Positions 2 to 57,960 of a stretch of DNA of 64,000 nt are shown piece by piece (the stretch's first letter is position 1; each line of letters opens with the position of its first letter). The notes beneath the pieces are model-generated. The model saw nothing but the letters and a program-made list of their open reading frames with translations, was not told the DNA's origin and ran no database searches. Source of the DNA: Candidatus Nitrospira neomarina (lineage in GTDB: Bacteria > Nitrospirota > Nitrospiria > Nitrospirales > UBA8639); the NCBI RefSeq assembly GCF_032051675.1, contig NZ_CP116968.1, positions 1,426,001-1,490,000 of the forward strand, given 5' to 3'. Position numbers and translations under genes: made by a program.

Positions 2-2707
2 CGGAATGGCGTCATCAAGATTGCTAACGAATATCTTGAAGCCAAAACTCAGCCGTTGAGGGCCCATCCATTGGCCGCATTTATCCGTGATGCACTACCC
101 AAGGAAATCGGGCATGCGGTCAATAGGACAGGGGATGAACAGCAGCTTATCGTGCAGGGGACGAAACTCCCTGGCAATTGGGCTTCGGTCCCCTGGATTG
201 GGATTATGGATACCCGTCTTACGGACAGCATTCAACGAGGGATTTATGTCGTTCTGTTGTTTGCTGAAGATATGCGCACCGTCTTCTTCAGCCTTGCAAT
301 GGGTGTGCAGAATACCTCTCGGAGGACGCAAGCCTCGTGGCTTCGCCAGATTCCAAATGATTTTCCTCCGCCGGAGGGGTTTGCCACAGGTCCATTACCT
401 TCTGGGTCACTTGCGGCACAAGGAATCGGCGCCCGCTATGAGCAAGCTGTCGTTTACTTCAAGAAATACCCCCGCACCGAACTGCCGGATGAGATTAAGC
501 TGGAGGCAGATCTCCTCGTCATTTGCAATCTACTCCGGCGTATTGGTGATAGCGGACAATACCGAATTGCCAATGCCGACGAACAACCCGAAGTAATATC
601 TATTACCATTCAGGGCCGTGATTTTCAATTCTCAGCAGATGACGTTGAGCACGCCTTTGCAAAGACGACGGAACCGCAATGGAAAGACAGACCCGGGGTT
701 GAACCGTATTGGCATGTCATCGTTGGTGATGAGAGCAAGCCTGTCAAAGCTGTTTTTCGCAATCTCCCCGGTGTGTCAGAGGGCTTCGACTTCACAAAAG
801 ACGCCGCAGCACGGGCTTTCGAGCGCTTGAGTTTTGAAATTATCAATATCAAACAGGATCCGATGGTAGGCGAGCTCTGTCTACTCGGCACGTGGACTGA
901 CGTTGATGAAGAGGATGCAGTCCAGGTTAGAGCCGCTATTGCCTCCAAAAGCGCATGGGCTAGCTGGTGGAGTTTCCCGATTCGGGAGGAGTTCCACTCA
1001 AAGCTTCAACAACCGTTCTACTTTTACGTCAACGCTGGCAAGCAGAGCTTCCCTTTTCGTATGAAAGTTGAGCAATTTCAGACAAGCCGCGGTAATGAGG
1101 GGATGGCAAGCCCATGGCCAGAGATCACTGACGCTGAGTGTGTCGGTAAGTTACGGGCCGGACCCAAGAACTCCGAAGTCTTCAAAACATGGCTCTATGT
1201 GACGGAATTTGAATCGCTGGCCCCGCCGCTCACGTTGGATAGCTTTGACCCTGCGCTAGGGTCGAAGCGAACGGCACTTTTAAACCAGAGTGCATTTGGT
1301 TACGCATATCGGAAAAACTCTGTCGCTAACGAATTGGCACAACACCCACAGATCCCTCTCAATTTAATCCTCTATGGCCCGCCGGGCACTGGCAAAACAC
1401 ACTGGATGCGCCAGAAGTTCGCTGACTATACCAATGAACCAAGCGATGTGGACCACGAAACTTGGATCCAGGAATTACTCACCAACTATGGATGGCGTCC
1501 CGTGATTGCCGCATCGCTCGCCGAACTCAAGCATCCAGCACGGGTACCAGAGATTCGCGACCACCCCTGGGTACAAGCTAAGACGAAGCAACGTGGCCGA
1601 ACCGCGGCAGCGGTTCATGCCACGCTTTGGGGCTACCTGCAGGAACACACGCCCGAGACAGTTCCTGCGGTAAAAACCAGCATTCGCCGCCCCCCTTTCA
1701 TCTTCTCGAAGCGCGGCTCTGGTGAGTGGGAGTTGCAACCAGACTGGCAAGAGCTCGACGAGGAATCTGCCGAGCTCGCGCGCTTACTACAGGCAGGGCC
1801 TAGCGGAGCAATGGAGCCAATCCGTCGCTACCGCGTGGTGACATTTCATCCTTCCTTTAGCTACGAGGACTTCATTCGAGGGATTCGCCCTGTTGCGACT
1901 ACGGAGGATGGCTCGACCCAATTTCGTATAGTCGATGGGGTGTTCAAGCAGATCTGTGATGAGGCTCGCGCAAATCCGTCCAAACGCTATGCTCTCTTTA
2001 TCGACGAAATCAATCGTTCCAATATTGCCAAGGTATTTGGCGAATTGATCACCTTGATCGAGCCAGACAAACGGGCCGTCTTTGATGCGAAAGGGCGGCT
2101 GATAAAGGGAATGACGGTTCAACTGCCAGGGAGCGAGGGCGCGGATGTTGCTGAACCCCCTTTTGGCGTGCCAGCCAACCTAGATATCTTTGGCACTATG
2201 AACACAGCGGATCGGTCGATCGCATTACTTGATATCGCGTTGCGCCGACGTTTCGATTTCCAAGAGATGGAGCCCAACTACACTGTACTCGATCGGCTGG
2301 TTGGAAATGTGCATTTGGGTGCCTTACTGAGACGACTTAATGATCGGTTGGAATACCTACTTGATCGCGACCACCGCATTGGGCACGCATACCTCATCCC
2401 AGTGGATTCATTGGCTAATCTCCGTCGGGCGTTCAGTATGCAAATTATCCCGTTACTGCAGGAATATTTTTTCGACGACATGGGACGCGTAGCCATGATC
2501 TTGGCAACTAGCCCAAAGACCCCTCCCTTTGTCGAGTATGAGCGCCTCAGTCATGGCCAGCTGTTTCCGGGGACTCGTGCTAAGGGGCTCCCGCTCGAGC
2601 GGTCCCGTTACCTCGTAGGATTGGAATCGTCGTGGACGGAGGAAAGCTTTCTGGGCGTTTATGAATTACCAGCTGGTAGCGTCGAAGAAGAGGGAGAGCC
2701 TGCCTAG
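2..2707 (+). CDS. mcrB: McrB-like AAA+ motor of a type IV (modification-dependent) restriction system, 5'-truncated by window edge
   Basis: The frame is open to the left edge, so the true start lies outside; a TTG at 56 is only an internal candidate. The first visible residues (NGVIKIANEYLEAKTQPL, then HPLAAFIR) resemble the MrcB/DUF3578-type N-terminal domain. A middle part near visible residues 310-390, with WASWWSFP and FPFRMKVEQF, may be a modified-base reader of EVE/PUA type (inference). The C-terminal half is a McrB GTPase/AAA domain: Walker A GPPGTGKT near 459, Walker B followed by DEINRSN near 667, and the family signature GTMNTADRS near 731. McrB hydrolyses GTP to drive cleavage by McrC at methylated DNA. 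The nuclease gene follows after 3 bases, so the two form an operon. Confidence 0.9.
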   Translation, partial: RNGVIKIANEYLEAKTQPLRAHPLAAFIRDALPKEIGHAVNRTGDEQQLIVQGTKLPGNWASVPWIGIMDTRLTDSIQRGIYVVLLFAEDMRTVFFSLAMGVQNTSRRTQASWLRQIPNDFPPPEGFATGPLPSGSLAAQGIGARYEQAVVYFKKYPRTELPDEIKLEADLLVICNLLRRIGDSGQYRIANADEQPEVISITIQGRDFQFSADDVEHAFAKTTEPQWKDRPGVEPYWHVIVGDESKPVKAVFRNLPGVSEGFDFTKDAAARAFERLSFEIINIKQDPMVGELCLLGTWTDVDEEDAVQVRAAIASKSAWASWWSFPIREEFHSKLQQPFYFYVNAGKQSFPFRMKVEQFQTSRGNEGMASPWPEITDAECVGKLRAGPKNSEVFKTWLYVTEFESLAPPLTLDSFDPALGSKRTALLNQSAFGYAYRKNSVANELAQHPQIPLNLILYGPPGTGKTHWMRQKFADYTNEPSDVDHETWIQELLTNYGWRPVIAASLAELKHPARVPEIRDHPWVQAKTKQRGRTAAAVHATLWGYLQEHTPETVPAVKTSIRRPPFIFSKRGSGEWELQPDWQELDEESAELARLLQAGPSGAMEPIRRYRVVTFHPSFSYEDFIRGIRPVATTEDGSTQFRIVDGVFKQICDEARANPSKRYALFIDEINRSNIAKVFGELITLIEPDKRAVFDAKGRLIKGMTVQLPGSEGADVAEPPFGVPANLDIFGTMNTADRSIALLDIALRRRFDFQEMEPNYTVLDRLVGNVHLGALLRRLNDRLEYLLDRDHRIGHAYLIPVDSLANLRRAFSMQIIPLLQEYFFDDMGRVAMILATSPKTPPFVEYERLSHGQLFPGTRAKGLPLERSRYLVGLESSWTEESFLGVYELPAGSVEEEGEPA

Positions 2708-2710
2708 GCG

Positions 2711-4021
2711 GTGAGACCAGGCATGGCGTCCACTTATCTGACAGCCTTTGAGCATCAGCCTCTCACCGTGGGGTCCACCGACATCTGTGCAGATTTGACG
2801 ACGGGTGAGGCGGAACAACTTATTTTTCTTGGGGAGTTACGCCCTGGGTTTTGCAAACGGAGCTACCAGGCCATTTCCCTGGCGCAGTACTGCGGGCTAG
2901 TGGCGCTCGGCAACCGATCCCTTGAGATTCTTCCGAAAATCGACGATGACAACCGGCCGGATGAGTGTCGTGGGCTATTACTACGCATGCTACGAGAAGC
3001 AGCCGACATGTCGATCTTTCGTCATGTTGCCGTCGGTCACAATCTTCGACATGCCCCACTACTGGAAGTGTTTATTTCAGCATTCTTCGATATTGTGGCC
3101 TCGCTTGTTCGCGGTGGCTTGCTTCGGCAATATCAGGAACATGCGGAAGATCTTCGGGTGGTTCGTGGGCACATCATTACAAACCGCCAGTTCTCAGTCC
3201 ATGCCAACCGTCCGGATATTGTTGCATGTCGATTCGACGAACTGACAAGTGACAATCTCTGGAACCGTCTGCTCAAGGTTGCCTTACAAACGGTTGGGCC
3301 GTGGATTAGTAACACCGAATTGTATCGACGGTGGATAGAACTTAAGCTCGCATTCGATGAGGTTGCGGATATACATGCGAACGTGCAGATGTTGAATCGG
3401 CTCGTCTTCGACCGCCAGGCAACACGCTATCGGTTAGCCATCGACTGGGTAAGATGGATTCTCTCGCTCCTCTCCCCCGATCTTAGGGCCGGAGACAACG
3501 CCGCGCCCGGATTACTATTCGATATGAATGTGCTTTTTGAATCCGTCCTTGCTGCCTTGATAGGGCGAAATGCTATAGGTGCAGGTCTAACCTTGTTCGC
3601 CCAAGAAACTGAAAAGTATCTGGTAACCGTCCAAGAAAGTGGTGGGCACCGCGCGTTCGGCTTGAGACCGGATCTTGTTATCCGTCGTTCCGAGCAAGTG
3701 ATTGCAATTGGAGACACGAAATGGAAACGGCTCGTGGTCAGAAAAGACGGATATCTGTTACCACCCACCCAGGATCTCTATCAAATGCAAGCCTATGCCG
3801 CAGCATATAGCTGCGAGAACCTTGCCTTGATTTATCCATGGCATAGCGGATTGGCAGGTTCAAAAGAAACTGCATTTGAGTTACCACGTGTTGGTGAGAT
3901 GCAGCCAGTTGTCCACATCCTCTGTATCGACTTGCACAGTGACCCATTTGTATTAATCCGCGGCCTGAACATGTCGGAACTTGTTAAACTGCTGCCACGA
4001 GGCCGGGCTTCCAAGGCTTGA
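2711..4021 (+). CDS. mcrC: McrC-like nuclease subunit of the McrBC system
   Basis: 436 residues from GTG at 2711; an in-frame ATG at 2723 (MASTYL) is an equally good start. The N-terminal half matches the McrC fold that docks on the McrB ring. The C-terminal half has a PD-(D/E)xK nuclease core: LRPDLVI near 317-323, then GDTKWK near 333-338, giving the Asp and the DxK pair. It starts 3 bases after the McrB stop, consistent with translational coupling. Known role of the family: DNA cleavage between two modified recognition sites after McrB translocation. No truncation is visible, so the pair looks functional apart from the window cut in McrB. Confidence 0.88.
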   Translation: MRPGMASTYLTAFEHQPLTVGSTDICADLTTGEAEQLIFLGELRPGFCKRSYQAISLAQYCGLVALGNRSLEILPKIDDDNRPDECRGLLLRMLREAADMSIFRHVAVGHNLRHAPLLEVFISAFFDIVASLVRGGLLRQYQEHAEDLRVVRGHIITNRQFSVHANRPDIVACRFDELTSDNLWNRLLKVALQTVGPWISNTELYRRWIELKLAFDEVADIHANVQMLNRLVFDRQATRYRLAIDWVRWILSLLSPDLRAGDNAAPGLLFDMNVLFESVLAALIGRNAIGAGLTLFAQETEKYLVTVQESGGHRAFGLRPDLVIRRSEQVIAIGDTKWKRLVVRKDGYLLPPTQDLYQMQAYAAAYSCENLALIYPWHSGLAGSKETAFELPRVGEMQPVVHILCIDLHSDPFVLIRGLNMSELVKLLPRGRASKA

Positions 4022-4075: not shown

Positions 4076-4399
4076 ATGCCTGTTTTACCTGGCAAAAAAG
4101 ATATGGGGAAACTTAATAAGAGCACGCAACAGAACATGACCCACGATAATTATATGCGCCTGGCCATGGCCATGGCTCAGAAGGTCCCCCGATATCCCTT
4201 CGTCGCCGTGATCGTCCGACGGGCAACCGGGAGATATCGGCAAAGTTTTGACCGGCTTCCAGAAGTAACTCTAACAACCTCAAGCCGTGGCATGAAAACA
4301 ATCCAGGAATTCTATTGGCTAGTGGATGAACGCACACAAAGAGTGGTCAGTTGGAAGACTGAGGACCCCCAGGCAATGAAAGATGGACCTTTGCCATGA
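4076..4399 (+). pseudogene. Chimeric ORF carrying a duplicated N-terminal fragment of the downstream deaminase
   Basis: Residues 20-54 (NMTHDNYMRLAMAMAQK and onward to RRATG) closely match the start of the intact deaminase at 5203; the DNA identity covers about 4133-4235 and stops abruptly before the zinc-binding residues. The rest is unrelated: from an internal ATG at 4292 it reads MKTIQEFYWLVDERTQRVV and ends MKDGPLP. No deaminase activity is possible because the HxE and PCxxC motifs are absent. The stop overlaps the ATG of the next gene (ATGA at 4396-4399), so the 3' part may be a leftover small gene that was once coupled to the DUF6883 gene. Confidence 0.6.
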
Positions 4400-5202: not shown

Positions 5203-5676
5203 ATGCAAAAAACTAAAAAGAACATGAGTCCCGATGAGTATATGCGCCTGGCCATTGCCATGGCACAGAAGATCCCCCGGTATCCCTTCGGCGCCGTGAT
5301 CGTTCGACGGACAACCGGAGAGGTCCTCGCGAAAGGGTATAACCGTTCTTCCCGCAACCCTACCCTCCACGGCGAAATCGATGTGATCAATCGTTGTGCG
5401 GCCAAACATGGACCTGTGGATTGGACGGAACTGGACTTGTATACAACCGCCGAACCGTGTCCCATGTGTCAGAGTGCGATCGAGTGGGCGGGCATTGCTA
5501 CCGTGTACTTTGGGACGTCGATTCCGTTTCTCCAACAACTTGGTTTTCGGCAAATTGATATTCGAGCCGAAGAGGTGGCGCGACGAACTCCTTTTCGGAA
5601 CACGAGAGTGATTGGGGGGATTCTAGAGCAGGAGTGTAATGCGTTGTTTGAGGAGGTGCAGCGCGAGGACATTTAG
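5203..5676 (+). CDS. Nucleoside/tRNA-adenosine deaminase family protein (cytidine deaminase fold)
   Basis: 157 residues. Zinc-site motifs are complete: His56 and catalytic Glu58 in HGEIDVI, and the PCPMC motif with Cys86 and Cys89. The C-terminal FGTSIPFLQQLGF and VIGGILEQEC segments resemble GuaD/TadA-like free-base or nucleoside deaminases more than TadA proper, so the substrate is uncertain. The start is ATG 5203; ATG 5224 (MSPDEYM) is an alternative, and neither has a strong ribosome site. A truncated copy of its first third lies upstream at 4076. A structured repeat begins one base after its stop codon. Confidence 0.85.
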   Translation: MQKTKKNMSPDEYMRLAIAMAQKIPRYPFGAVIVRRTTGEVLAKGYNRSSRNPTLHGEIDVINRCAAKHGPVDWTELDLYTTAEPCPMCQSAIEWAGIATVYFGTSIPFLQQLGFRQIDIRAEEVARRTPFRNTRVIGGILEQECNALFEEVQREDI

Positions 5677-5677
5677 A

Positions 5678-5870
5678 TGCCGGGTTTCGACCCCGGACGA
5701 CGAGCCACTTTTGTTTCGGCAAAAGTGACCAAAACCATTGACGCCCCGTCTGGCTTTTTTGAAGAGGAGGGACGCGAACTTTTTGAAGAGCGGCCCAACT
5801 CGCATGGCTCAAACAAGGGCCGCTACCTGCGAAGAGCGTCCCTCCCGGGGGCCAGCCGGCAGGCGTCGGA
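5678..5870 (+). repeat. Structured repeat, copy 1
   Basis: Full copy of the dispersed family. First hairpin CCGGG/CCCGG around a TTTCGA loop. Second hairpin has arms CACTTTTG and CAAAAGTG around TTTCGG, so the stem sequence differs from most copies (GGTCCTTTTG/CAAAAGGACC) but still pairs, apart from one mispair at its base. Long-range arms GGAGGGACGC and GCGTCCCTCC are intact. It begins one base after the deaminase stop. Confidence 0.9.
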
Positions 5871-5879
5871 ACAAAATGA

Positions 5880-6064
5880 AAGCGTATTGAGGCAAACCCA
5901 CGGACGGTGGTCCAACTCGCGGAGTTTGTCCTGAGCCAACGCCGAAGGGCTCAAACAGTGCCCGCCTTTTTCCCGGTACCGTTTGCACTGCTTGGCCATG
6001 CCACCAGGCCAGGGAGCCTAGCGGGGAAGGTGAATGAAAAGGCCACCAGATCAGCCGACAGGCG
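5880..6064 (+). repeat. Variant (type B) repeat unit following copy 1
   Basis: Lacks the two 5' hairpins but ends like the family (cagccgacaggcgtcgga). Its middle matches the variant middle of the copy at 10438: ggctcaaaca, then tgcccgcc, then the gccatgccaccaggccag segment. This implies an alternative module of the same element. Confidence 0.65.
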
Positions 6065-6093
6065 TCGGACTACAGACGAAAAGTTCATGCTTG

Positions 6094-8809: not shown

Positions 8810-8837
8810 CTCCACTTACCACGGTGCCCCTTTCATA

Positions 8838-9029
8838 CCGGGGTTTCGACCCCGGACGACGAGGTCCTTTTCTTTCGGGAAAAGGACCCAAAACCATTGA
8901 CGCCCCGCCTAGCCTCATTGAAGAGGAGGGACGCTAACTTTTTGAAGAGCGGCCCAACTCGCAAGGCTCACCCAAGGGCCGCCAGATGCGAAGAGCCTCC
9001 CTCCCTGGGGCCAGCCGGCAGGCGTCGGA
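8838..9029 (+). repeat. Structured repeat, copy 2
   Basis: Full copy. The second hairpin reads GGTCCTTTTC/GAAAAGGACC: compared with the usual GGTCCTTTTG/CAAAAGGACC, both members of the loop-closing pair have changed together. The GGAGGGACGC arm is intact; its partner has one mismatch (GCCTCCCTCC). Starts 28 bases after the HicB stop. Confidence 0.9.
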
Positions 9030-9238: not shown

Positions 9239-10177
9239 TTATCTTTTATTTTGTGAGACCGTCTGTCGGGTGGTGCGGCTCCTTCCCTGTGGTTTCCTCC
9301 GGTGTTTATTGCCTCGTAGTATTTTGTTGTTGACCCATTCCTGTAACGCTATCCATACGGTATCTGGTTCGCTGCCGTCGCGGCTTGCCTCTTGCGCACA
9401 TATCAGAATCTCTTGGTACGACCGCACGTGGAACTGGACCTGATCCTGTCTGATCGTCCGGGTGAATTCGCTCCATTCCGGGGCTTTGACCTTTTGAGCC
9501 ATGGGCAGATCGGGGCTGTCCGCATAGACGATGACCACCGCCGGTTGCTTATTTTTCTGCCGCGCCAGCTTATAGGCCACGACGAGATTGCGCATCCATT
9601 GGTAGGCCGGTCCCGCGAATGGACAGGGGTGGTAATCGGTTTGGGCATCGAGGTGAAAGACTTTCGGAATGATGTCCCAATACTGAATGTCTTTTTCGCT
9701 TAAGGCGCAGCGACTGGTCATGTCGATGACGCGCTTGGCTTGCTGCGCATAGTTTCCATTGCACGGGACGGAGCCATTGCGCCGCACCGTTTGCGAGCAT
9801 GCCCCTCCATCCTGCTCCGTAAATTTACATTCAAACATGATCACGGAATGGGGATTTTCCGCATAGACATCCACTTGGGTCGGACAAGGTTCATTGAGCA
9901 ATGATGCGCGCGCGCGCCATTCCAGGATGATCTCCCAGGGACCGCCGGGCGGCACCCCCAGGTTGGTTGCCAGGGCATCGAGAATCGCCTCGCATTCAGA
10001 GGAGGTTTTGATGGTGCCGAAGACATCAATCGCGAGCGCTTGGGATGAATGCGTGAAATGGGTATCGATGGCTCCTCCCCGGCCTGTGTGCCACGGAAAA
10101 GTATCCCATGGTACACAGGCTTGATGCGCGTGGGGAAAGATATTACGTTCGAGGCGTGTTCTAGTGGCATGGTCCAT
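9239..10177 (-). CDS. Putative PD-(D/E)xK endonuclease-like protein (PGN_0703-type)
   Basis: 312 residues, start ATG 10177. A nuclease-like core is visible: Glu86 (WEIILEWRA), Asp103 (TQVDVYAEN), then FECKF with Glu116 and Lys118, the D...ExK spacing of the PD-(D/E)xK superfamily. Many cysteines (CKFTEQDGGACSQ, NGSVPCNG) may bind a metal. It resembles proteins annotated as PGN_0703-family putative restriction endonucleases; this is recalled, not searched. No methylase or partner gene is beside it. It sits alone between two repeat copies. Confidence 0.6.
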   Translation of the reverse strand: MDHATRTRLERNIFPHAHQACVPWDTFPWHTGRGGAIDTHFTHSSQALAIDVFGTIKTSSECEAILDALATNLGVPPGGPWEIILEWRARASLLNEPCPTQVDVYAENPHSVIMFECKFTEQDGGACSQTVRRNGSVPCNGNYAQQAKRVIDMTSRCALSEKDIQYWDIIPKVFHLDAQTDYHPCPFAGPAYQWMRNLVVAYKLARQKNKQPAVVIVYADSPDLPMAQKVKAPEWSEFTRTIRQDQVQFHVRSYQEILICAQEASRDGSEPDTVWIALQEWVNNKILRGNKHRRKPQGRSRTTRQTVSQNKR

Positions 10178-10437
10178 AGGTGTTGGCCTTCAAAGTGAGC
10201 ATAGGAATTGGAATGTGGTGTTTATTTCTTTATCGGTGAATGAGGGATGAAGCTGAATGAGGGAGGAAAATGTTGGATGGATATAGGGATGGGGAGTTTC
10301 ATATTGAATACGTGAATGCATTGGAAGATTGGCTGGGGCTTGGGCATGGCCGGGGTGATCGATTGAACTCTCGGAAGGGGGAGACGATAGGTGCCCGGTG
10401 GTAAATGTCGTGAGGGATGCGAGCGTGCCCTTGAGAC

Positions 10438-10730
10438 CGGGGTTTCGGCCCCGGACGACGAGGTCCTTTTGTTTTGGCAAAAGGACCCAAAACCATGTTG
10501 GCCGTGCCATGGCCCTTCGGGTGTCCTCCGCGGTTCACCGGCCCCGGCGGCGGGCAAACTCGCCTGGCTCAAACACTGCCCGCCTTTTCTCCGGGGCCGG
10601 TTGCACTGCTCGGCCATGCCACCAGGCCAGGGGACCCTAGAGGCCAAGGTGAATGAATTTGCAGAGATCCAACACGGGTCGGAAACTTTTTGAAGAGCGT
10701 CCCTCCTTGGGCCAGCCGGCAGGCGTCGGA
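10438..10730 (+). repeat. Structured repeat, copy 3 (long, type B middle)
   Basis: Both 5' hairpins and the 3' end are those of the family. The middle is replaced by a longer module with its own nested stems: arms ACCGGCCCCGG and CCGGGGCCGGT enclosing GGCGGGCA and TGCCCGCC. The apical loop (aactcgcctggctcaaaca) is nearly the same as in standard copies, although the stem holding it is different. Confidence 0.85.
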
Positions 10731-14820: not shown

Positions 14821-15073
14821 GCCGGGGTTCGGCCCGGCAGCCGAGTGTTTGCGTGGGGCGTCTTTTCCTTTTTGAGGTCTTCCGGGGTTTCGACCCCGGA
14901 CGACGAGGTCCTTTTGTTTCGGCAAAAGGACCCAAAACCATTGACGCCCCGTCTGGCCTTATTGAAGTGGAGGGACGCGAACTCTTTGAAGAGCGGCCCA
15001 ACTCGCAAGGCTCAAACAAGGGCCGCCAGATGCGAAGAGCGTCCCTCCTTAGGACCAGCCGGCAGGCGTCGGA
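14821..15073 (+). repeat. Structured repeat, copy 4 with leader hairpin
   Basis: Starts with a leader: hairpin GCCGGG/CCCGGC and about 40 further bases, then the core from 14882 with all stems intact. First member of an array continuing to 16158. A linker of 107 bases (15074-15180, type L1) connects it to copy 5. Confidence 0.92.
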
Positions 15074-15180
15074 TTCACTGTCTGCATGCTGATTGGTGCG
15101 GCGGCCCGAGTGACTGACCTGCAGGTGGTGCGTGGGAAGTCTGATTATTATTATCCGAAAGCTGGGAAAGTTTTGAGATC

Positions 15181-15371
15181 CCGGGGTTTCGCCCCCGAAC
15201 GACGAGGTCCTTTTGTTTCGGCAAAAGTGGCCAAAACCAGTGACGCCCCGTCTGGTCTCATTGAAGTGGAGGGACGCGAACTTTTTGAAGAGCGGCCCAA
15301 CTCGCCGGGCTCAAACAAGGGCCGCCAGATGCAAAGAGCGTCCCTCCTTGGGCCAGCCGGCAGGCGTCGGA
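15181..15371 (+). repeat. Structured repeat, copy 5
   Basis: Core copy without leader. The second hairpin is imperfect here (GGTCCTTTTG against CAAAAGTGGCC), looking like a hybrid of two stem versions. Long-range and inner stems are intact. A type L2 linker (15372-15453) follows. Confidence 0.92.
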
Positions 15372-15453: not shown

Positions 15454-15706
15454 AGCCGGGGTTCGGCCCGGCAGCCGGGTGCTTGCGTGATGCGTCTCTT
15501 CCTTTTGAGGTCTTCCGGAGTTTCGGCCCCGGACGACGAGGTCCTTTTGTTTCGGCAAAAGGACCCAAAACCATTGACGCCCCGCCTGGTCTCATTGAAA
15601 TGAAGGGACGCGAACTTTTTGAAGAGCGGCCCAACTCGCCGGGCTCAAACAAGGTCCGCCAGATGCAAAGAGCGTCCCTCCTTAGGACCAGCCGGAAGGC
15701 GTCGGA
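15454..15706 (+). repeat. Structured repeat, copy 6 with leader hairpin
   Basis: Leader hairpin plus core from 15515. The first core hairpin has one mismatch (CCGGAG/CCCCGG), the outer arm reads GAAGGGACGC, and the inner right arm reads GGTCCGC. Followed by another L2 linker (15707-15784) about 80 per cent or more identical to the one after copy 5. Confidence 0.92.
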
Positions 15707-15784
15707 CAAAGTAGGAGAGGAACCTTTATGGAATTCCCACGCAAATGGAAGAAGCGCAGGAAGGACAGTGAAGGGAAGAAAGAA

Positions 15785-15974
15785 GCCGGGGTTCGGCCCG
15801 GCAGCCGAGGTCCTTTTGTTTCGGCAAAAGGACCCAAAACCATTGCCGCCCCGTCTGGCCTCATTGAAGAGGAGGGACGCTAATCCGGAGAAGAGCGGCC
15901 CAACTCGCAAGGCTCAAACAAGGGCCACCAGATGCGAAGAGCGTCCCTCCTTGGGCCAGCCGGCAGGCGTCGGA
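15785..15974 (+). repeat. Structured repeat, copy 7 (leader hairpin joined directly to second hairpin)
   Basis: The leader hairpin is fused to the GGTCCTTTTG hairpin, deleting the intervening first core hairpin; recombination between the two similar GC hairpins explains this. Other stems are present apart from small changes (gggccac). An L1 linker (15975-16080) follows. Confidence 0.9.
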
Positions 15975-16080
15975 TCAATAATCTGCTTGGTGTTTCGCGC
16001 GATGTCCCAGGAGGTCGACTTACAGCTGGTGCCATAGAAGTTTGATTAATATTGTCGGAAAGATGAAAAGGAATTTGGAT

Positions 16081-16158
16081 GCCGGGGTTTCGGCCCGCGA
16101 CGACAAGCCACTCTGGTTTCGGTCAAAGTGGCCAAAACCATTGACGCCCCGTCTGGCA
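16081..16158 (+). repeat. Structured repeat, copy 8 (5' half only)
   Basis: Contains the first two hairpins and then stops after gacgccccgtctggc, giving way to unrelated sequence. The second hairpin is CCACTCTGG against TCAAAGTGG around TTTCGG, an alternative stem version. The truncation ends the array. Confidence 0.85.
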
Positions 16159-17540: not shown

Positions 17541-17676
17541 GATGCCCGAGGGTTCCGCCTCCGGACAACGAGGTCCTTTTTGTTTTGACAAATGGACCTA
17601 AAACCATCCACGTCCCGTCTACGGGTCTGCCAAATGCGAAGGGTGCCCCTCCTTGGGCCAGCCGACAGGCGTCGGA
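17541..17676 (+). repeat. Structured repeat, copy 9 (degenerate, internally deleted)
   Basis: Recognisable 5' hairpins with several mismatches and an intact 3' end, but the central long-range stem region is mostly deleted. Followed by a 42-base linker (17677-17718) identical but for one base to that at 18632-18673. Confidence 0.8.
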
Positions 17677-17718
17677 TGTCTGATCAACAATGTCAGCATG
17701 GTGGGAAATTTTTTGGAT

Positions 17719-17909
17719 GCCGGGGTTCGGCCCGGCAGCCGAGCCACTTTGGTTTCGGTCAAAGTGGCCAAACCCATTGACGCCCCGTCTGGTCTCTCTG
17801 AAGTGGAGGGACGCGAACTTTTTAAAGAGCGGCCCAACTCGCCGGGCTCAAACAAGGTCCGCCAGATGCGAAGAGCGTCCCTCCGTTGGGCCAGCTGGCA
17901 GACGTCGGA
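17719..17909 (+). repeat. Structured repeat, copy 10, truncating a toxin gene
   Basis: Begins with the leader hairpin fused to a CCACTTTGG/TCAAAGTGG hairpin around TTTCGG. Compared with the GGTCCTTTTG/CAAAAGGACC version, most pairs are changed on both sides. Its 3' flank (tgtctgatcaa) replaces the end of the DUF5615 gene and supplies a stop codon. Confidence 0.92.
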
Positions 17910-18631: not shown

Positions 18632-18673
18632 TGTCTGATCAACAATGTCAGCATGGTGGGAAAGTTTTTGGAT

Positions 18674-18866
18674 GCCGGGGTTTCGACCCCGGACGACGAG
18701 GTCCTTTTCTTTCGGGAAAAGGACCCAAAACCATTGACGCCCCGTCTGGTCTCATTGAAGTGGAGGGACGCGAACTTTTTGAAGAGCGGCCCAACTCGCA
18801 AGGCTCAAACAAGGTCCGCCAGATGCGTAGAGCGTCCCTCCTTAGGACCAGCCGGCAGGCGTCGGA
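18674..18866 (+). repeat. Structured repeat, copy 12
   Basis: Full core. The second hairpin is the GGTCCTTTTC/GAAAAGGACC version also seen in copy 2. Long-range stem intact. Followed by the start of an L2 linker (aaagtaggagaggaacctttt) that diverges after about 25 bases. Confidence 0.92.
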
Positions 18867-20062: not shown

Positions 20063-20315
20063 GACGGGTTTCGGCCCGGGAGCCGAGCGCTTGCGTGGAG
20101 CCTCTTTTCCTTTTTGAGGTCTTCCGGGGTTTCGGCCCCGGACGACGAGGTCCTTTTGTTTCGGCAAAAGGACCCAAAACCATTGACGCCCCGTCTGGCT
20201 TTATTGAAGAGGAGGGACGCGAACTCTTTGGAGAGCGGCCCAACTCGCCGGGCTCAAACAAGGGCCGCCAGATGCAAAGAGCGCCCCTCCTTAGGACCAG
20301 CCGGCAGGCGTCAGA
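20063..20315 (+). repeat. Structured repeat, copy 13 with leader
   Basis: Leader hairpin with mismatches, core from 20123, all core stems intact except small end changes (cgtcaga). An L1 linker (20316-20421) with the same length as those after copies 4 and 7 follows. Confidence 0.9.
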
Positions 20316-20421: not shown

Positions 20422-20671
20422 GCCGGGGTTCGGCCCGGCAGCCAAGGTTTTGCCTGATGCCTCTTTTTCTTTTCCGAGCCTCCGGGGTTTCGGCCCCGGA
20501 CGACGAGGTCCTTTTGTTTCGGCAAAAGGACCCAAAACCATTGACGCCCCGTCTGGCTTTATTGAAGAGGAGGGACGCGAACTCTTTGGAGAGCGGCCCA
20601 ACTCGCGGGGCTCAGACAAGGGCCGCTAAATGCAAAGAGCGTCCCTCCTTGGGCCAGCCGGCAGGCGTCGG
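20422..20671 (+). repeat. Structured repeat, copy 14 with leader
   Basis: Leader and core complete. The inner stem GCGGCCC/GGGCCGC and the outer GGAGGGACGC/GCGTCCCTCC are perfect. An L2 linker (20672-20751) follows, closely matching those after copies 5 and 6. Confidence 0.92.
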
Positions 20672-20751
20672 ACAAAGTAGGAGAGGAACCTTTATGCGAT
20701 TCCCATGCAAGTGGGAGAAGTGCAGGAAGGACAGTGAGAGGAAGAACGATG

Positions 20752-20837
20752 CGGGGTTTCGGCCTGGCAGCCGAGGTCATGTTCTTTCGTTCTTTGGAGA
20801 AAAGAACCAAACACAACGGTTTCGCTCTTCGAGACGA
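20752..20837 (+). repeat. Structured repeat, copy 15 (degenerate)
   Basis: Leader-like hairpin gcggggtttcggcctggc, then a strongly diverged second hairpin region. No long-range stems. It closes the right-hand array and is followed by a terminator-like hairpin. Confidence 0.6.
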
Positions 20838-20877
20838 CCCAGGCCCACTTTTGGAGGTGGACCTGGGACCCTTTTTT
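20838..20877 (+). terminator. Intrinsic terminator on the plus strand, after the last repeat
   Basis: Arms CCCAGG and CCTGGG plus CCAC and GTGG around an eight-base loop, then a T run (20872-20877). No plus-strand gene precedes it, only the repeat array. On the minus strand it also lies directly after the stop of the stress-protein gene. Confidence 0.6.
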
Positions 20878-47164: not shown

Positions 47165-47240
47165 TGGTGGAGGGCACGGGAGTTGAACCCGCGACCCCTA
47201 CGTTGCGAACGTAGTGCTCTCCCAACTGAGCTAGCCCCCC
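47165..47240 (-). tRNA. tRNA-Ala (anticodon CGC)
   Basis: 76 nt cloverleaf on the minus strand. Acceptor arms GGGGGGC and GCCCTCC (one G-U pair), anticodon stem CTACG/CGTAG around TTCGCAA, giving anticodon CGC. Discriminator A and an encoded CCA end. Confidence 0.96.

Positions 47241-57883: not shown

Positions 57884-57960
<77 letters not shown>

Follow-up and report, generated by a model that had tools for sequence, protein, structure and literature searches.

What keeps a 19-nucleotide (nt) loop constant when the stem beneath it is replaced? The question is raised by one copy (copy 3) of a repeat in a 64,000-nt window—the whole stretch of DNA analyzed here—that corresponds to positions 1426001–1490000 of the single 4.80-Mb contig of a Nitrospirales-family genome (Candidatus Nitrospira neomarina). 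The repeat is a dispersed non-coding DNA-hairpin element of ~195 nt, composed of hairpins H1 and H2 followed by one long hairpin (P3-P4-P5) that has a conserved 19-nt loop, AACTCGC NNN GCTCAAACA, at its tip. This loop is kept as sequence while the paired stems drift, and copies of the element within the genus form outward-facing arrays around defence islands, with cargo at one syntenic site that differs between species.

Copy 3 carries the loop on different stems

Copies with one set of stems (type-A) were used to build a covariance model, R1, with ~192 model positions. Copy 3 is organized as follows, with coordinates in the window and strand in parentheses:

10434..10730 (+): copy 3, with A-type 5′ hairpins, a B-type middle and an A-type 3′ end (R1 match at 10434–10633; repeats D2, D3, D4 and D8; sequence)
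10437..10454 (+): hairpin H1 (CCGGGG TTTCGG CCCCGG), then ACGACGAG (sequence; H1 motif precedes the loop in other genera and phyla too)
10462..10487 (+): hairpin H2 (GGTCCTTTTG / CAAAAGGACC), then CAAAACC (covariation; other phyla also have an H2-like hairpin upstream of the loop)
10537..10601 (+): B-type outer stem, arms 10537–10547 / 10591–10601 (sequence)
10549..10584 (+): B-type inner stem, arms 10549–10556 / 10577–10584 (sequence; DNA fold z −3.2)
10557..10575 (+): conserved 19-nt apical loop AACTCGCCTGGCTCAAACA (sequence; cross-phylum occurrences)
10686..10730 (+): A-type 3′ end, GAAGAGCGTCCCTCC..GGCCAGCCGGCAGGCGTCGGA (repeat families D3 and D5)

The original prediction, that copy 3 has the same loop on stems unrelated to those of type-A copies, is exactly confirmed in coordinates and arms: the inner arms are GGCGGGCA/TGCCCGCC and the outer arms ACCGGCCCCGG/CCGGGGCCGGT, whereas type-A copies have GCGGCCC/GGGCCGC inside GGAGGGACGC/GCGTCCCTCC (e.g. 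inner arms 14993–14999/15020–15026 and outer arms 14969–14978/15039–15048). Of 20000 positions drawn at random in the window, 5 have a perfect 8-bp stem enclosing a 19-nt gap, and both hairpins fold better as single-stranded DNA than shuffled sequences do (z −3.2 and −2.7 for the two strands of the B hairpin, −3.9 and −3.6 for those of the A hairpin). Copy 3 is a hybrid by sequence and looks like an A/B recombinant. A second B-type middle had been placed at 5880–6064; its 3′ half does match (90% over 5948–6014), but the 5′ half does not, the 5′ arm GGTGGTCC being unpaired with GTGCCCGCC and the loop (5914–5957) holding a 25-nt insert.

In sister genome G016, the left flank of the copy 3 junction leads into type-A copy L306, which is complete, so that the stem module differs between lineages at one site and the loop is the same. 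In genome G013 the same neighbouring gene is followed by an A-type remnant and then by half a copy of B type whose loop contains an insert. A gene of the REase-ARP family (9239–10177) adjoins copy 3, and G013 and G016 have it at this site as well.

The loop in other bacteria

A scan of 395 genomes of the phylum with pattern AACTCGCNNNGCTCANACA, its middle triplet free, gives 467 matches in 31 genomes, versus 3 for the reversed pattern; two of the 31 genomes (G146 and G323) have GAT in the middle and lack the stem, and these look like chance or coding matches. The exact pattern AACTCGCTNCGCTCARACA, with TNC demanded in the middle, is present in at least 118 stretches from 84,980 species genomes. 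Grouped by record title, the matches listed comprise 46 Pseudomonadota, 29 Bacteroidota, 23 Bacillota, 7 Desulfobacterota or delta, 4 Nitrospirota, 2 Patescibacteria, one each of Nitrospinota, Fusobacteriota and Gastranaerophilales, and 4 unnamed, counts that represent a sample. Since the scan demands an exact pattern, loop divergence outside the genus is not measurable from it. A further 87 viral stretches contain the loop (L213–L299); several related phage groups recur among them, and part of these loops may be chance or inherited. Over the named and viral loci, 74 of 223 loop occurrences fall inside an open reading frame (ORF) of >150 aa as drawn by a crude ORF caller.

Among the matches listed, a complementary inner stem surrounds 132 of 196 distinct non-genus occurrences, versus 56 of 3903 with re-dealt flanks (occurrences at least 60 nt from a locus end), and these stems start with 105 different 6-bp sequences. 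The pairs are nearly all Watson-Crick (1286, with 18 mismatches). Stems are present in the listed matches from Pseudomonadota (48/54), Bacteroidota (25/29), Bacillota (15/21), Desulfobacterota (7/7), other Nitrospirota (15/29), viruses (19/47) and the remaining small groups (3/9). Constraint on the loop independent of the stem is thus strongly supported, and a loop confined to the window copies by recent recombination, the outcome that would have counted against the original prediction, is rejected by its presence in many phyla. Its occurrence there on different stems likewise rules out recent recombination as the sole cause of the shared loop.

The middle triplet is TNC in 191 of the 196 listed non-genus loops, most of which come from the scan that demands it, and the complementary strand accordingly reads GCGNAGC. 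GNA triloops, as in d(GCGNAGC), form unusually stable DNA mini-hairpins.

Clostridium sp. KNHs205 illustrates stem drift under pairing within one genome. It has 69 copies of the loop pattern, and in the 21 used for stem analysis the same loop caps a ~51-bp stem, with more than one Watson-Crick type at 21 of 51 pairs and a 6–7-bp block that varies from copy to copy and is nearly always complementary. The loop looks invariant here partly because copies were selected by it.

The upstream hairpins recur as well (module tests used occurrences beyond 200–300 nt from a locus end). Of 176 cases, 36 have an H2-like hairpin upstream of the loop at a distance of up to 300 nt, versus 7 with one downstream and 27 of 2270 random stretches, and the H1 motif is upstream in 11 of 183 cases, including Ralstonia and Desulfuromonadales records, versus none downstream and 18 in 4580 random stretches. 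The composite element, not the loop alone, therefore recurs in several phyla. The H2 loop is able to base-pair with sequence immediately 3′ of its hairpin (e.g. CTTGAC/GTCAAG, CTTGAT/ATCAAG and CTTGAA/TTCAAG), over at least 6 bp in 16 of 38 cases versus 5.0 when re-dealt, and a pseudoknot or alternative hairpin is possible.

Genus copies are arrayed around defence islands

Model R1 has 76 matches in the 4.8-Mb genome, 14 of them in the window and all of those on the + strand. Matches are present in 18 of 30 relatives, corresponding to all 18 tested members of the genus (the present genome included) and none of 12 genomes from three other families of the order. The window contains, in addition to copy 3:

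5677..5870 (+): type-A copy (R1, 215.5 bits)
5880..6069 (+): degenerate B-type copy, loop 5914–5957 with 25-nt insert (D8, 90% over 5948–6014; D16; sequence)
8835..9029 (+): type-A copy (R1, 208.1 bits)
14879..15073 (+): type-A copy, the reference (R1, 224.6 bits)
15178..15371 (+): type-A copy (R1)
15512..15706 (+): type-A copy (R1)
15783..15974 (+): type-A copy (R1)
16079..16156 (+): partial copy, 5′ hairpins (R1, 48.1 bits)
17543..17676 (+): partial copy (R1, 59.4 bits)
17717..17909 (+): type-A copy (R1)
18672..18866 (+): type-A copy (R1)
20121..20315 (+): type-A copy (R1)
20479..20672 (+): type-A copy (R1)
20749..20838 (+): weak partial match (R1, 21.4 bits, E 2e-4)

Over the wider region at 1403.6–1446.5 kb of the contig, the largest gap divides 11 copies on its left, every one on the − strand, from 13 on its right, every one on the + strand. 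The gap contains a type I restriction system, an AAA protein and McrBC, and its right part extends into the window:

56..4021 (+): right part of the array-flanked defence island, McrB-like (56–2707) and McrC-like (2711–4021) genes (Pfam MrcB_N 6.7e-28, AAA_5, McrBC 1.2e-61)
5203..5676 (+): deaminase gene at the right island border (Pfam dCMP_cyt_deam_1 8.2e-21; homologue at the same border in sister genomes)

At the syntenic site, identified by the deaminase and other neighbours, G013 has a type I system with matches to PDC-S06 and HEC-05 models, and G016 has matches to DISARM-like, HEC-06 and NERD-helicase models (among the four of five ORFs of ≥250 aa that were scanned, the fifth being a 1705-aa ORF). 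The copies face outward in both genomes.

Copy orientation alone was then used to predict three further gaps, and restriction or defence genes are present in 3/3. The first, at 1617–1629.5 kb of the present genome, contains type I restriction genes, Septu PtuA/PtuB and an Mrr-like gene. The others are in the complete genome G276, which has 100 R1 matches: the gap at 3443.7–3454.7 kb, syntenic with the window site, bordered by the same deaminase and carrying different cargo, gives Schlafen-type helicase, HNH, SIR2 and DSR1 matches, and that at 3636.0–3641.6 kb contains a C5-methyltransferase. Six arbitrary 11-kb stretches of G276 served as control; their 46 ORFs match only mad2, mad3 and mad8 models, and 2 of 10 control ORFs matched when re-scanned. 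Another G013 island contains type I genes, known beforehand from a homology hit, and one of its flanking copies faces the opposite way.

Such arrays could also be generated by tandem duplication in gene-poor, fast-changing islands, the proximity of defence genes reflecting a shared tolerance of insertions. Copies within an array are indeed closely related, and defence islands are generally known to collect repeats. Tandem duplication does not, however, by itself yield opposite orientations on the two sides, and orientation had pointed to the three centres before their genes were read; we regard this explanation as possible though not probable.

Some copies and neighbouring sequences have further peculiarities. 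Two similar copies (L029:1089–1297 and L029:4129–4313) differ by 24 nt of the CCTGTCCTGAGCTTTGTCGAAGG type inside the loop; the apex of this insert resembles the loop family (TTCGAC..GCTCAGGACA when read on the opposite strand), which suggests that hairpins are nested. Upstream of position 1667 in L190 (− strand), a tandem H1-like hairpin pair precedes H2, as if a module had inserted into a module. Near the island border, a 103-nt direct repeat (4128–4230 and 5216–5318) is 87% identical, with its second copy overlapping the start of the deaminase gene; the first may derive from a related gene or remnant.

Inverted pairs and the search for a partner protein

Dispersed, multi-copy elements of this kind could be the ends of non-autonomous transposons—miniature inverted-repeat transposable elements (MITEs) or relatives of repetitive extragenic palindromes (REPs)—mobilized by a known transposase family. 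Inverted pairs ~180–250 bp apart in Marinobacter, Haemophilus, Variovorax, Herminiimonas and Parabacteroides have the expected form, and in Parabacteroides massiliensis all 10 copies are in inverted groups, the units having inverted H2 ends with no obvious target duplication. However, the Y1 transposase family that includes REP-associated tyrosine transposases (Y1/RAYT; Y1_Tnp) has no match in the copy-rich genomes G276 (75 loop copies), G106 (14), G090 (21), G226 (20) and G327 (18), and is present in the copy-free genomes G162, G230, G158, G294 and G393; moreover, the named genomes share no gene near the loop and target duplication was not found. Transposon ends of a known family are thus rather unlikely.

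Two other candidates fared similarly. The reverse transcriptase family RVT_1 is absent from 5 of 12 genomes (the present genome, G276, G106, G226 and G327), and an integron integrase is over the cut-off in only one of the 12 (G150), the others giving weaker tyrosine-recombinase matches; those in the present genome and in G276 (two weak long-frame matches each, plus one short weak match in G276) include the long-frame ones that we take, by size, for Xer recombinases. For each of Y1/RAYT, reverse transcriptase and integron integrase there are copy-rich genomes that lack it, which rules them out as the common partner. A shared gene adjoining the element is ruled out too, because the named genomes have no family beside the loop in common; the neighbour groups that recur most come from related viral contigs. 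The loop may fairly be supposed to be the functional contact site, as had been proposed from sequence, and no binding partner was found among the protein families searched.

Pairing is probably conserved at the level of DNA

A structure of 46 pairs, drawn by hand, was tested on 35 type-A copies out of 41 copies aligned, the remaining six having inserts, deletions or cut ends. Pairing is present in 93.6% of cells and falls to 35–50% when partner columns are slid by 1–3. Both sides have changed at 20 of the 46 pairs, versus 9.0 in shuffles (0 of 500 shuffles as high; score 0.166 versus 0.075), and among the 10 pairs of H2 at five. Mismatches within the stems are G.T 29 versus A.C 34, with 52 versus 44 in other genomes of the genus (73 distinct rows from the first 79 of 106), and 5 versus 11 in the 21 Clostridium copies, giving a pooled 86 versus 89 (p 0.88). 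Because RNA should favour G.U over A.C, the equal frequencies are read as structure kept at the DNA level, and the conserved form is likely, on this sequence evidence, to be DNA rather than RNA. Two processes could keep such pairing, namely selection acting on hairpins that are extruded or single-stranded, and repair of the palindrome by template switching.

The second of these may be taken further, such that template-switch correction of quasi-palindromes keeps the stems, a stable DNA fold of the loop promotes extrusion, and the element is a self-maintaining by-product with no dedicated protein. The almost perfect Watson-Crick stems outside the genus and the stable GCGNAGC motif on the complementary strand of the listed loops both fit; stability alone, however, leaves unexplained the conserved AACTC and TCARACA outside the seven-base core, and neither the upstream H1/H2 modules nor the defence-island arrays are accounted for, making this improbable.

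A structured non-coding RNA (a small RNA, leader or RNA-stability element) with its loop read by protein or RNA is very improbable, as the strongly covarying structure and the possible pairing of the H2 loop in other phyla are offset by the equal G.T and A.C counts where RNA would tolerate G.U on one strand, by a control of 20 tRNAs with 42 versus 0 (although the program may bracket only pairs that it accepts), and by the lack of an Rfam match to the element.

Rfam at its gathering threshold yields no match in 17 loci and, in the window, only the following, which rules out a known Rfam RNA family there:

47168–47240 and 57887–57960 (-): two tRNA genes (Rfam scan of window)

A second dispersed repeat of ~190 bp is present in the genus (L039:755–945; 81–96% identical), and at the same site G013 is missing the 295 bp around it.

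A candidate recombination or mobility site

The most likely reading, to which we give about an even chance, is that the element is a non-autonomous DNA-hairpin recombination or mobility site with a loop read by a protein supplied in trans; it is based on structure, distribution and context. The extruded hairpin would be contacted at the loop by a recombinase, nuclease or other host factor. Cargo might insert, onion-like, between existing inverted copies, or be exchanged by recombination between flanking arrays, and with either process the left side would end up with − copies and the right side with + copies. Defence modules would thereby turn over at one site, and the change from A-type to B-type in copy 3 would represent replacement of the stem module with retention of the recognized loop.

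Several observations weigh against this recombination-site reading. The isolated loop has no fold under the DNA energy model, and many loops of the genus itself have NGG instead of TNC, such that not all loops contain the GNA mini-hairpin. Complementary stems could also be maintained in the absence of selection, by template-switch repair of quasi-palindromes. No partner common to copy-rich genomes was found among Y1/RAYT, reverse transcriptase and integron integrase, and a search for empty sites of the Nitrospirales element revealed no clean one with target duplication, instead meeting two old orthologous elements (84–87% identity) and a neighbouring different repeat. Because the members of an array are related to one another, their outward orientations do not count as independent cases. 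Finally, one of three clusters faces inward (+ then −) both in the present genome (G000), where the cluster centre (1900–1916 kb) has two ORFs with no Pfam family, and in G276:

G000:C1:1900186–1915623 (+ then −): inward-facing cluster (R1 copy orientation)
G276:C1:3932627–3946350 (+ then −): inward-facing cluster (R1 copy orientation)

More tentatively, these elements may constitute one ancient pan-bacterial class of DNA-hairpin sites recognized by the apical loop whatever the stem (complementary strand TGTYTGAGCGNAGCGAGTT, which would contain a GNA mini-hairpin), with a widespread unnamed recombination factor that would assemble and exchange cargo such as defence islands; we consider this a possibility only.

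A loop kept in many bacterial groups on rewritten stems is a natural experiment, pointing both to what is read (the loop) and to the form in which it is read (paired DNA), and the variety of stems provides hundreds of ready-made compensatory mutants. The outward-facing arrays are a sequence signature that located defence genes here without inspection of the genes, and they make a concrete model of defence-island turnover testable.

Comparison with known systems

Searches of open-licence PubMed Central (PMC) full text with loop and H2 sequence strings returned no relevant paper, which does not in itself show absence in print, and a concept-based search of the same texts gave nothing on the element. 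The part of the RepRanger paper available to us gives palindrome counts for Nitrospira moscoviensis, and nothing on the element was noticed in that part (PMC12306157).

The element resembles REPs and bacterial interspersed mosaic elements (BIMEs), which have RAYT (TnpA-REP) as partner, in being palindromic, present in many copies and sometimes in inverted pairs, and it may, given the crude ORF calling used here, also be extragenic. Unlike these 20–40-nt sequences it is ~195 nt long with three hairpins, its stems vary with compensation, it conserves the loop rather than the stem or a foot tetranucleotide, and several copy-rich genomes are without a Y1 transposase. HEARO and omega RNAs and other structured repeats of Rfam are similarly dispersed, some without an adjacent protein; the element differs from all of these in having no gathering-threshold match and a mismatch pattern that is not RNA-like. 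Integron attC sites have poorly conserved stems and are recognized in the form of folded single-stranded DNA; extrahelical bases and boxes of the RYYYAAC/GTTRRRY type are what is read, and IntI is required. The element likewise has poorly conserved stems and would also act as folded DNA, but an integron integrase passes the cut-off in only the one genome.

Intergenic dyad sequences (IDS) of Haemophilus influenzae were reportedly described by Karlin et al. in 1996. Two Haemophilus records (L164 and L210) carry the loop on inverted or single hairpins and are likened to IDS on this basis rather than by published IDS sequences. In the part of the source available to us, IDS of H. influenzae are thought to be important for the mobility of gene loci (PMC4144887), which is the nearest idea in print that we found.
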